Assembly (NCBI GenBank): GCA_938045315.1
Contig: CALINM010000030.1
Location: forward strand, 1-8,531
Direction: 5' to 3'
From: an uncultured bacterium
GTDB taxonomy: Bacteria; CALINM01
DNA length: 8,531 nucleotides
Position numbers and translations under genes: made by a program. The notes beneath the pieces are model-generated. The model saw only the letters and a program-made list of their open reading frames with translations. It had not been told where the DNA came from and searched no databases. Shown here in pieces: positions 1 through 5,385 of the stretch (the first letter of the stretch is position 1; every line of letters begins with the position of its first letter).

Positions 1-213
1 AGAATTGATAAAAAAATTGAATTTTATAAAAACTTTATTGAAAATAAAGAGATTAACAAACTATCCAAAAATGCCTATGACAGAAGAAATGATATTATAA
101 AGCTATATTTAAAAAAGGAAGAACCAGAAAAAATAGCGAAAATACTTGATATACCCCTTGGTGAAGTAGAATTAATAATAAATCTTTATAAAATCAAGGC
201 ACCTGAGAAATAA
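1..213 (+). CDS. C-terminal part of a small helix-turn-helix-like protein (DUF2802/DUF6115-like), 5' end outside window
   Basis: An open frame runs from base 1 to a TAA at 211-213, giving the last 70 residues of a protein that starts before the window. The visible part is charged and Lys-rich, then ends with a compact helical segment (about residues 32-66 of the fragment) containing IAKILDIPLGEVELIINLYK. The pattern 'IAK.L.IP.GEVELI..L' resembles the C-terminal helix-turn-helix-like end of DUF2802/DUF6115 proteins (the group that includes Bacillus SwrB/YlxL), which often sit beside flagellar or chemotaxis genes. Its place just upstream of flgF agrees with that. Any N-terminal membrane segment or coiled coil cannot be seen here. 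The family assignment comes from motif memory, not a search. Its role is unknown; a link to flagellar assembly is inference from the neighbourhood. Confidence 0.7.
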   Translation, partial: RIDKKIEFYKNFIENKEINKLSKNAYDRRNDIIKLYLKKEEPEKIAKILDIPLGEVELIINLYKIKAPEK

Positions 214-237
214 TTTCCATATTATAGGAAATTTTTT
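212..237 (+). terminator. Weak possible intrinsic terminator after the upstream gene
   Basis: AATTTCC (212-218) and GGAAATT (227-233) are perfect 7-base complements around an 8-base AT-only loop, and a run of six T (232-237) overlaps the end of the stem. The hairpin begins inside the stop codon of the upstream gene, where a terminator would be expected. Only two of the seven pairs are G-C, so it would be weak. Read-through into flgF is plausible. Confidence 0.4.
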
Positions 238-293
238 CCTCTTTTTCATAGAGATATCCTGTTAAAAGATTGAAAAATATAAGATTTAAGGCA

Positions 294-309
294 TGGCATT
301 AAATTTGCA
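294..309 (+). promoter_or_regulatory. Sigma54 (RpoN) -24/-12 promoter for the flgF operon
   Basis: TGGCATTAAATTTGCA matches the sigma54 consensus TGGCAYG-N4-TTGCW. It has GG at 295-296 and GC at 307-308 with the required ten bases between them. It is the best such site upstream of flgF and points the right way. With the C at 308 taken as -12, transcription would start near 320, one base before the flgF ATG. Sigma54 control of rod and ring genes is established in several flagellar hierarchies (for example Vibrio, Pseudomonas, Campylobacter). An enhancer-binding activator would be needed; I could not recognise its binding sites in 214-290. Confidence 0.8.
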
Positions 310-310
310 A

Positions 311-322
311 ATACAGCTGTAT
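311..322. repeat. Perfect 12-base palindrome across the predicted flgF transcription and translation start
   Basis: ATACAGCTGTAT is its own reverse complement. It begins two bases after the -12 element of the sigma54 promoter and ends within the flgF ATG. A 12-base palindrome is expected a couple of times by chance in this length of DNA, so only its location makes it notable. It could be an operator, or could pair weakly around the AUG in read-through RNA. Confidence 0.35.
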
Positions 323-1025
323 GCATAAAGGTATATATATAGCAGTATCAGGTGCAGTTATTAAGCAAAATCAGTTAGAAATTATTGCTCAAAATTTAGC
401 AAATTCAAATTCTATAGGTTATAAAAGAGAATATATAACCTTTATTGATTATCTCATAAAAGAAATAAACAATAACAGCGATGACAAAATAATGACAAAT
501 ATAAACAAAATATACTATGACTTTTCAGTGGGTGAATTTATCAAAACCGGGAAACCCCTTGATATTGCAATAGAAGGTTCTGGTTTTATCGCATTGGAAG
601 GAAATTTATATTCCAGAAGAGGAGATTTGAAAGTTGATGGAAATGGTTTTCTGGTTAATTTCAGTGGACATAAAGTACTGGGTAAAAGAGGTTTTATTGA
701 GGTTGGGAAGAATAAGGTTCCTGATATTTCTAAAGATGGCAAGGTTTATATAGATGGAAATATGATAGATGAATTAAAAATAGTAGATTTTGAAAGATAT
801 GATATTTTATCTAAAAAGGATAGTGGTTTGTTTTTTTCTAAGGATGGCGGCAAGGAATCAAAAGCTAACATTTTAGTGGGATTTTTAGAGTCATCAAATG
901 TAAGTCCCGTAAAGGAAATGATAAGTATGATCGAAACTTTAAGAGATTTTGAGAGCTACCAGAAGGCTATTCAAATTTTTGATGAGTCAATCAACAAAAT
1001 TGTAAATGAGATTGCAAGATTATAG
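321..1025 (+). CDS. flgF: Flagellar proximal rod protein FlgF
   Basis: FlgF is a subunit of the periplasmic rod that joins the MS ring to the hook; it is exported by the flagellar type III system without a cleaved signal. The 234-residue product has the N-terminal rod/hook motif (IIAQNLANSNSIGYKRE, about residues 21-37), the central 'F..GEFIKTG.PLDIAIEGSGFI' block (about 68-90) shared by FlgE/F/G, and the C-terminal coiled-coil end (about 187-222). It is slightly short for FlgF (commonly near 250) and lacks FlgG-specific sequence. The family start 'M.KGIYIA.SG' falls at this ATG and no other in-frame start codon is available upstream before a stop at 300-302. No Shine-Dalgarno sequence precedes it; the predicted sigma54 transcript begins at the ATG itself. 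It is the first gene of the rod/ring operon. FlgF rather than FlgG is chosen because a clear FlgG follows. Confidence 0.93.
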   Translation: MHKGIYIAVSGAVIKQNQLEIIAQNLANSNSIGYKREYITFIDYLIKEINNNSDDKIMTNINKIYYDFSVGEFIKTGKPLDIAIEGSGFIALEGNLYSRRGDLKVDGNGFLVNFSGHKVLGKRGFIEVGKNKVPDISKDGKVYIDGNMIDELKIVDFERYDILSKKDSGLFFSKDGGKESKANILVGFLESSNVSPVKEMISMIETLRDFESYQKAIQIFDESINKIVNEIARL

Positions 1026-1037
1026 GAGGAGTTTTAT

Positions 1038-1826
1038 ATGATAAGAGCCCTTTTAGTTGCTGCAACTGGGATGGAAGCCCAGAAGTATAATATTGATGTA
1101 ATTGCTAACAACCTGGCCAACGTTAATACTGTTGGTTACAAAAAAGGTCGTGCTGATTTTGCTGAGCTTATTTATCAGGATTTAAAATCCCCAGGGACTT
1201 CATCTTCAGAGAACACAGTTTTCCCATCGGGAATTCAACTTGGGCTTGGTACAAAAATAGTTTCTACTCAAAAGCTTTTTCACCAGGGAGATTTTGTGTC
1301 TACAGGAAATAATTTAGATTTAGTAATAGAGGGTGATGGATTTTTCAAAATAATGATGCCCGATGGTACTGAAGCTTATACTCGTTCAGGTTCCTTCAGA
1401 TTAGACAGCGAAGGAAGAATAGTAAACAGTGATGGATATTTATTAAGTCCCGAAATAACAATACCTTCAACAGCTGTTAGTATTACAATTGGTGGAGATG
1501 GTAAGGTTACAGTAGTGGAAGCAGGCAATACAAATCCCACAGAAGTTGGTACCATTGAGCTGGTTAGGTTTATCAATCCCGGTGGTTTAAAACCTATTGG
1601 TAGAAATTTATATGTTGTTTCATCTGCATCAGGGGATCCAATTGAAGGGTTACCGGGAACAGAGGGATTAGGTACAATACTTCAGGGCTTTGTAGAGATG
1701 AGTAATGTAAATGTAGTAGAAGAAATGGTTAATATGATTGTCAGTCAGAGAGCCTATGAAATTTGTTCGAAAGCAATTCAAACTACAGATGAGTTTTTAC
1801 AGATAGCAAATAACATGAAAAGGTAA
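1038..1826 (+). CDS. flgG: Flagellar distal rod protein FlgG
   Basis: FlgG forms the distal rod that crosses the P and L rings and carries the hook. The 262 residues match the usual length (about 260). Visible are the N-terminal motif [16 protein letters not shown] (21-36), the FlgG-specific stretch after it (about 46-80, with [14 protein letters not shown]), which is known to distinguish stiff rod from flexible hook, then [10 protein letters not shown] (94-103), [10 protein letters not shown] (114-123), [12 protein letters not shown] (141-152) and the C-terminal block [18 protein letters not shown] (217-234) followed by [18 protein letters not shown] strong ribosome site AGGAGG (1024-1029) overlaps the flgF stop codon, so translation is coupled to or follows flgF. 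It carries one cysteine (C243). The high similarity to textbook FlgG makes this among the surest calls in the window. Confidence 0.97.
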
Positions 1827-4328: not shown

Positions 4329-5036
4329 ATGATAAGTCAATATTTTGACATAGGTTCATATGGCCTAACAAAATCAAAATTAGAAAAATTAAACAGTACT
4401 GGCAATCAAGAAGAAATGGAAAAAGTTGCTCAGGAGTTAGAGTCAGTATTTATTTATGAATTACTTAAGGTAATGAGAAATACTGTTAAAATTAGTGATA
4501 AAGAACAAGATGCCTTTTGCAACTACAATACCATAATTGATATGGAACTCTCCAAGGTCTTATCGGAAAGAGGATTTGGTTTAAAAAATTATATTTTAGA
4601 AGCATTGAATAGGGATAAAATTATTAGAAGCTATCAGAAAGTTGAAAAGGAGTCAGAAAAACCATATTTTAAAAATATCACTTCCGGCTTTGGGATGAGA
4701 AAACATCCAGTTTTTGGTATTAATCATTTTCATAAAGGTATTGATATAGCATTGCCAGAAGGTAGTGATATTAAGCCAGTTCTTGACGGTAAGGTAATTT
4801 ATAGTGGATTTGATAAAGGGTATGGAAATAATATTGTTATTGAACATAAAAATGGTTTAAAAACAAGATATGCCCATAATATGGTTAATCTTGTTAATGT
4901 GGGAGATGTTGTTGATAGGGATACTATTATTGGTAAGGTTGGTAAAACAGGTATCACAACGGGACCACATTTACATTTTGAAGTGATAAAAGATGGAAAA
5001 CCAATAGATCCTGGCATCTTTCTTGCTGCAAAATAA
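4329..5036 (+). CDS. flgJ: FlgJ-type rod-binding protein fused to M23 peptidoglycan endopeptidase
   Basis: The 235-residue protein has two domains. Residues about 30-92 are a FlgJ N-terminal rod-binding (rod cap) domain: VAQELESVFIYELLKVMRNT, then the MELSKVLSERGFGL helix. After a charged linker (about 93-113), residues 114-232 form an M23 (LytM/lysostaphin-type) metallopeptidase: SGFGMRKHPVFG, HKGID, YAHN, GKTGITTGPHLHFE. By analogy with LytM, zinc ligands are H135, D139 and H216, with H183 and H214 catalytic; all are present, so the enzyme looks active. No signal peptide is seen, which fits export through the rod channel. In Escherichia and Salmonella the FlgJ C-terminal domain is instead a glucosaminidase (GH73). 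It begins one base after the flgI stop, with GGAGA (4315-4319) as ribosome site. Its last codons carry a sigma54 site. Confidence 0.92.
   Translation: MISQYFDIGSYGLTKSKLEKLNSTGNQEEMEKVAQELESVFIYELLKVMRNTVKISDKEQDAFCNYNTIIDMELSKVLSERGFGLKNYILEALNRDKIIRSYQKVEKESEKPYFKNITSGFGMRKHPVFGINHFHKGIDIALPEGSDIKPVLDGKVIYSGFDKGYGNNIVIEHKNGLKTRYAHNMVNLVNVGDVVDRDTIIGKVGKTGITTGPHLHFEVIKDGKPIDPGIFLAAK
5012..5027 (+). promoter_or_regulatory. Second sigma54 -24/-12 site, inside the 3' end of flgJ, upstream of flgM
   Basis: TGGCATCTTTCTTGCT has GG at 5013-5014 and GC at 5025-5026 with exactly ten bases between, and differs from TGGCAYG-N4-TTGCW at one position. It shares TGGCAT-N5-TTGC with the flgF promoter. 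The predicted start is near 5038, just after the flgJ stop and about 57 bases before flgM. The bases also encode the last residues of FlgJ (GIFLA), so the match could partly reflect coding; position and orientation favour a real promoter. Confidence 0.6.
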
Positions 5037-5094: not shown

Positions 5095-5385
5095 ATGAAA
5101 ATTAATGGAAACAAGCCATATGATGGAGTTGAAGTAACTCTCTCTACAACAAAAATTAGTAATCTAAAAAATGATGAGAGCAAGTTAAGAAGCGTCAAAA
5201 AACAGGCAGAAGATGTGATCGAAATCTCGAGGGATTCAAAAAAGATTGCAGAAATCGCAACTGCTATTAAAAATATGCCCGAAATAAGGAATCAGAAGGT
5301 AGAAGAACTTAAAAAAGTTATAGAATCTGGAAATTATACAGTTGATCCAAGAAAACTTGCAGAGAAAATAATAAGCGAATTATAG
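5095..5385 (+). CDS. flgM: Anti-sigma28 factor FlgM
   Basis: FlgM binds and holds sigma28 (FliA) until the hook-basal body is finished, then is exported through it, freeing sigma28 for filament genes. The 96 residues match the family. The N-terminal half is polar and probably disordered, typical of the exported form. The C-terminal half (about 41-96) has the sigma-binding signature: DVIEISRDSKKIAEI, then KVEELKKVIESGNYTVDPRK followed by LAEKIISEL; compare 'R..KV..LK..IE.G.Y.VD...VA..ML' in the family. Two promoter-like sites, sigma54 (5012-5027) and sigma28 (5039-5065), lie upstream, so it is likely made both before and after sigma28 release. It is followed after two bases by flgN, an order shared with Bacillus and proteobacteria. 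Confidence 0.93.
   Translation: MKINGNKPYDGVEVTLSTTKISNLKNDESKLRSVKKQAEDVIEISRDSKKIAEIATAIKNMPEIRNQKVEELKKVIESGNYTVDPRKLAEKIISEL

Follow-up and report, generated by a model that had tools for sequence, protein, structure and literature searches.

In the uncultured bacterium analysed here, the flagellar gene flgF is most likely expressed from a leaderless mRNA transcribed by σ54 RNA polymerase, with a predicted leader of 0–5 nt. Judged from sequence comparison, we are quite confident that σ54 transcription from a start point adjacent to the ATG would give an flgF operon message that is leaderless and free of a Shine–Dalgarno (SD) sequence, and that this layout is conserved in the lineage and in many Nitrospirota-type bacteria. 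A first-pass annotation of the same DNA had presented the leaderless σ54 transcript as a single curiosity; the transcript itself gains support from the spacing and SD loss seen in orthologues, but the gene belongs to a conserved class rather than standing alone.

The stretch of DNA analysed, hereafter the window, is one whole contig of 8531 bp (C30) from a 1.86-Mb draft genome with a GC content of 33% in the stretches examined. It carries flgF, flgG, flgA, flgH, flgI, a gene for an M23-peptidase FlgJ-like protein, flgM, flgN, flgK and flgL, the last assigned from its flagellin domains and position (main features in Table 1). The flgF product matches TIGR02490 with 160.8 bits (E=3.5e-47), below the curated cut-off of 178.5, so the name FlgF rests on best match and operon position; FlgEFG_subfam and the Pfam rod domains score above cut-off, with Flg_bb_rod beginning at residue 5. 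In the FlgJ-like gene (4329–5036) the enzymatic part is an M23 peptidase, in contrast to the glycosidase domain of enterobacterial FlgJ, and the N-terminal part, placed where a rod-binding domain would be, has no Pfam match.

Table 1. Features of the window bearing on flgF expression
Feature	Position	Strand	Remarks
Terminator-like hairpin and T tract	212..238	+	AATTTCC/GGAAATT with 8-nt loop; follows directly on the stop codon of the DUF6115-like gene upstream
σ54 promoter TGGCATTAAATTTGCA	294..309	+	TGGCATT-AAAT-TTGCA, near-consensus; -24 GG at 295-296, -12 GC at 307-308
Predicted transcription start	319..321	+	G319 to A321; leader 0-2 nt; predicted from fixed σ54 geometry
flgF	321..1025	+	First gene of the operon, followed by flgG; ATG start; no SD
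flgG	1038..1826	+	Strong SD AGGAGGA, energy -10.2; TIGR02488 E=1.6e-110
Second σ54 site TGGCATCTTTCTTGCT	5012..5027	+	Within the 3' end of the FlgJ-like gene, ahead of the flgM ATG at 5095

The σ54 site and the start of flgF

The GG and GC of TGGCATTAAATTTGCA stand at the fixed spacing of σ54 promoters and fit TGGCAY-N5-TTGCW; under a scoring scheme of 12 conserved positions that accepts Y at position 6, the site matches at 11. The σ54 site claimed at first pass is thus borne out, with a chance expectation of about 0.0005 for a match as good in the 107-nt intergenic stretch, and sites as good but with the wrong GG–GC spacing number only 1–6 (mean 2.5) per 2 x 285 kb of the window's genome. A reversed-pattern control (6 vs 92) was dropped as biased because that pattern contains CG, and shifts of the GG–GC spacing and other ATG distances served as controls instead.

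From the -12 C at 308 to the flgF ATG the distance is 13 nt. That the protein starts at this ATG, as had been proposed, agrees with the protein profiles and with the alignment of orthologues, which places them at M1, a residue kept in all close FlgF orthologues. The in-frame codons ahead of it (ATT TGC AAA TAC AGC TGT) follow a TAA at 300, and there is therefore no ATG, GTG or TTG that could serve as an alternative start between the two; nor is there an SD before the ATG (SD:anti-SD energy 0), so that both absences noted earlier hold. The start point had been put at about 320, and strict geometry (+1 at 12 nt past the -12 C) does give T320, although the purines G319 and A321 are likelier. No special RNA structure was detected at the flgF start (z 0.64), and no σ70-like site on the + strand from 240 to 320.

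The missing SD sets flgF apart from flgG (SD:anti-SD energy -10.2), flgI (-10.2) and flgM (-11.5); flgN and flgL also lack a clear SD, but both are internal to the gene run. Ahead of flgF lies an open-ended gene (1–213) with a weak DUF6115 match (28.9 bits, cut-off 27), and its stop is followed by the hairpin and T tract of Table 1, which suggest that flgF heads its own transcription unit. This hairpin folds at -10.1 kcal/mol (z -3.1), with none of 200 shuffles as low, and falls under the terminator-scan threshold because it has merely two G–C pairs.

The genome encodes RpoN (PF04552, 210 bits) and at least 11 near-full PF00158 σ54 activator domains. We found 13 consensus sites TGGCAY-N5-TTGCW in 285 kb, in stretches chosen partly for holding σ54 sites, so that such counts are not a genome census. 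From their surroundings these sites appear to behave as real promoters, since, where a downstream ORF is clear, the site mostly stands 34–69 nt ahead of an SD-led ATG, as in three leadered examples at 43 nt (SD energy -8.2), 39 nt (-11.9) and 41 nt (-16.1). Two are unlike the others, flgF at 13 nt and a gene for a 105-aa PqqD-domain protein (L166, G000:C214:3340-3372) whose ATG is 16 nt after the -12 C, giving a second leaderless-looking σ54 gene; the SD energy is 0 in both. An internal contrast to flgF is provided by TGGCATCTTTCTTGCT, 69 nt past whose -12 C the flgM ATG is found with a normal leader, and the anti-σ28 gene flgM may thus have a σ54 promoter of its own.

Spacing and SD sequences in flgF orthologues

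The window's phylum is represented by three genomes only, and the other two, from its genus and family (G001 and G002), encode RpoN but yield no match to FlgF; they may lack a flagellum, or its genes may fall in assembly gaps. Orthologues were therefore taken from other lineages: loci were recruited via FlgG, and the phylum of one of them (L008; Nitrospirae) was then screened with its FlgF in 295 genomes, giving 142 matches. Aligning the proteins to M1 fixed the start codons without reference to any promoter, and 82 flgF upstream regions, mostly Nitrospirota-type, were examined for σ54 sites matching at least 10 of 12 positions within 150 nt.

A site is present in 73 of the 82 regions, and the spacing from its -12 C to the ATG is sharply bimodal. 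The comparison of orthologous upstream regions called for at first pass thus gives 34 genes at 13–17 nt (seven at 13, 11 at 14, three at 15, five at 16 and eight at 17), none at 18–25 nt and 39 at 26 nt or more, reaching 130 nt. The empty interval speaks for the site calls being right, since false calls would spread evenly and fill it. An SD (energy -4 or better) precedes 2 of the 34 short-spaced and 33 of the 39 long-spaced flgF genes (p=3e-12), a difference that persists once near copies (at least 70% identity) are removed (2/24 vs 20/22). All 34 short-spaced genes start with ATG, as against three GTG starts among the long-spaced, and their protein sequences are deeply diverged. The promoter match, its spacing, the missing SD and their joint conservation are all established directly. 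Thirteen of the 34 are spaced at 16–17 nt, with predicted leaders of 4–5 nt, and are leaderless in a loose sense; among those at 13–14 nt, C occupies position -1 in 16 of 18. The distribution suggests that flgF avoids leaders of about 6–13 nt, which exceed what leaderless initiation allows yet leave no room for an SD.

A FlgF tree places the window in a supported clade with 21 leaderless members out of 22, and the leaderless state requires 9 changes compared with 26 in shuffles. The window's FlgF is on a long branch and its exact place is unsure, with the five nearest rows all leaderless. Where independent pairs across supported branches differ, a switch in spacing goes with a switch in SD status (6:0 in most pairings, p=0.03). 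Lone leaderless genes occur among leadered relatives at L217, L224 and L229, so that several switches of leader type must have occurred. An orthologue whose promoter and ATG are separated by a ribosome site would speak against the leaderless reading; such genes do exist, though only outside the close clade or as scattered exceptions near it, where the spacing is 26 nt or more. Near relatives with long leaders include L009, L012, L015, L024, L176 and L186. In L012, L024 and L176 the 56–75 nt between site and ATG are AT-rich and repeat-like. Two of these, L012 and L176, also have a short frame opening with TTG behind an SD-like GGAGG; it closes ahead of the flgF ATG, in L176 right next to it, which hints at a possible coupled minicistron.

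Proposed mechanism and rival explanations

From these observations we infer the 5' end, the activator and the mode of translation. σ54 RNA polymerase, opened by an enhancer-binding activator, would begin transcription about 12 nt (about 11–14) past the -12 C, on or beside the A of the flgF ATG, and the flgFGAHI... operon mRNA would then open with its start codon, after a leader of 0–2 nt here and 0–5 nt in relatives. A message beginning at most 5 nt from its AUG would be read by leaderless initiation, so that flgF would be initiated through the 5'-terminal AUG and the downstream genes mostly via ordinary SDs; a minority of other σ54 genes would share the layout. Leaderless initiation is marked by 70S or IF2/fMet-tRNA-loaded ribosomes and by kasugamycin resistance, and flgF translation may share these traits. 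Transcription initiates well at C|A, a pyrimidine/purine junction, and a C ahead of AUG therefore favours a start on the A; the frequent GG before C|ATG makes a GC-AUG start possible too. The position at which σ54 transcription begins can shift by a few bases, which counts against the leaderless reading.

The alternative we take most seriously, though we consider it unlikely, accepts the σ54 site as real and has FlgF made mainly from a longer SD-less transcript, arising by upstream readthrough or from a σ70 or σ28 promoter at about 240–290. The hairpin is poor in G–C pairs, an unusual promoter could be present in the AT-rich spacer and 28% of the genome's larger ORFs lack a clear SD by a crude measure, all of which would suit this account; it is weakened by the lack of a σ70-like site noted above, and it would not predict that SD loss tracks promoter proximity across orthologues.

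It is very improbable that transcription starts at 319–321 but that flgF is translated little or not at all from this RNA, FlgF being made off some internal or processed RNA while the layout serves translational repression. In E. coli, translation of leaderless mRNAs is often weak, which lends the idea some plausibility, but no in-frame internal ATG, GTG or TTG occurs ahead of the conserved N-terminal domain, and the conservation of M1 argues the other way as well. Still less credence can be given to a chance match without promoter function: 2.7 sites with three or fewer mismatches are indeed expected by chance in the window, but the expectation at the quality of TGGCATTAAATTTGCA in the intergenic stretch is the far smaller one given above, and site and spacing alike are retained in orthologues. 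We therefore retain σ54 transcription from an ATG-adjacent start as the preferred reading of flgF.

Other genes with this layout and comparison with known systems

In 10 genomes, the count of ATGs peaks exactly 14 nt from the -12 C of σ54 sites (17 vs about 4 per position). Distances of 13–17 nt, which cover 5 of 16 positions, hold 66 of 138 hits (flgF among them) in 16 genomes with a leaderless flgF (p=3e-5) and 51 of 114 in 16 with a leadered one (p=0.002), an enrichment in both sets. The idea that leaderless σ54 genes are confined to leaderless-flgF genomes accordingly found no support, the leadered set showing an excess at 13–14 nt as well, with fewer real ORFs behind it (6 of 26). Outside flgF, among hits whose sequence was retrieved, true ORF starts account for 18 of 34 at 13–17 nt (one with an SD), for 3 of 23 at 9–12 nt (two with a second ATG at 14–15 nt) and for 10 of 20 at 18–24 nt (three with an SD); the last interval is therefore not empty there, and the two-state spacing rule is not absolute beyond flgF. 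C stands directly before the ATG in 18 of 27 non-flgF real genes, compared with 7 of 31 non-gene control ATGs (p=0.001).

Genes in the short layout include those for LpxC, FliK, TPR, AMIN-TPR, response-regulator-like and PilZ proteins, an SLT transglycosylase and a pilin-like protein; fliK, lpxC, TPR-protein and response-regulator genes recur in it, often with C directly ahead of the ATG. The essential lipid A gene lpxC lacks a clear SD and has a consensus σ54 site 14–22 nt upstream of its start at L159, L240, L250, L266, L320, L324 and L327; outside the window's genome its spacing can be 20–22 nt with no SD, a departure from the two-state rule. σ54 control of lpxC would be unexpected. It is possible, if on balance doubtful, that Nitrospirota-related bacteria have a regulon-level leaderless σ54 class, comprising flgF, fliK, lpxC and genes for TPR and AMIN-TPR envelope, response-regulator-like and pilin-like proteins, in which activator-triggered transcription from a promoter fused to the start codon via C|ATG (often GGC|ATG) would feed a distinct, SD-independent mode of translation and couple assembly-stage transcription to ribosome state.

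For flgF, promoter–ATG spacing appears to evolve under a two-state constraint, with a leader of 0–5 nt or of at least 14 nt and none between, and natural orthologue pairs that differ in leader type offer a way to test why a flagellar operon should open with a gene that has no ribosome-binding site. We found no description of conserved leaderless σ54 mRNAs in the literature searched, although isolated cases may sit in published tables of transcription start sites. Leaderless genes have been counted mainly via σ70 -10 boxes, by which σ54-driven ones would be missed.

The σ54 flagellar messages of Campylobacter and Caulobacter are, so far as is known, SD-led and have ordinary leaders. This is the layout that the distant flgF orthologues (26 nt or more, with SD) resemble and from which the window's flgF differs, while their σ54-dependent middle and late flagellar genes share with the window a -24/-12 rod/hook operon and the encoding of RpoN and activators (PMC3847290, PMC4287350). 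The σ54 starts of C. jejuni lie 8–13 nt past the TTGCTt motif, and the leaderless genes listed for this species have σ70 boxes (PMC3847290). Leaderless mRNAs of mycobacteria, Deinococcus-Thermus and Leptospira likewise combine an AUG-proximal start, no SD, exclusive use of ATG and a promoter fixed just upstream (PMC3160421, PMC12340547), but theirs is a σ70-type -10 box, where flgF has an activator-requiring -24/-12 promoter; the survey in PMC3160421 states that only Pribnow-like promoters are detectable by its method. For Bradyrhizobium, an extended -10 is given as the motif of leaderless genes, the authors remarking that no specific promoters had been described for such genes (PMC4842269), and the passages found in the maps of S. 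meliloti and Leptospira describe leaderless mRNAs as well as σ54 promoters without joining the two (PMC3616915, PMC5243855). Leader gain and loss among orthologues along the phylogeny, as seen for flgF, is known from Epsilonproteobacteria, where leaderless status is poorly conserved and σ70-based (PMC3847290), in contrast to the deep-clade conservation and the σ54 promoter of flgF here. As far as we have found, it is the conserved pairing of a σ54 promoter with a leaderless mRNA that is new, each alone being already known.
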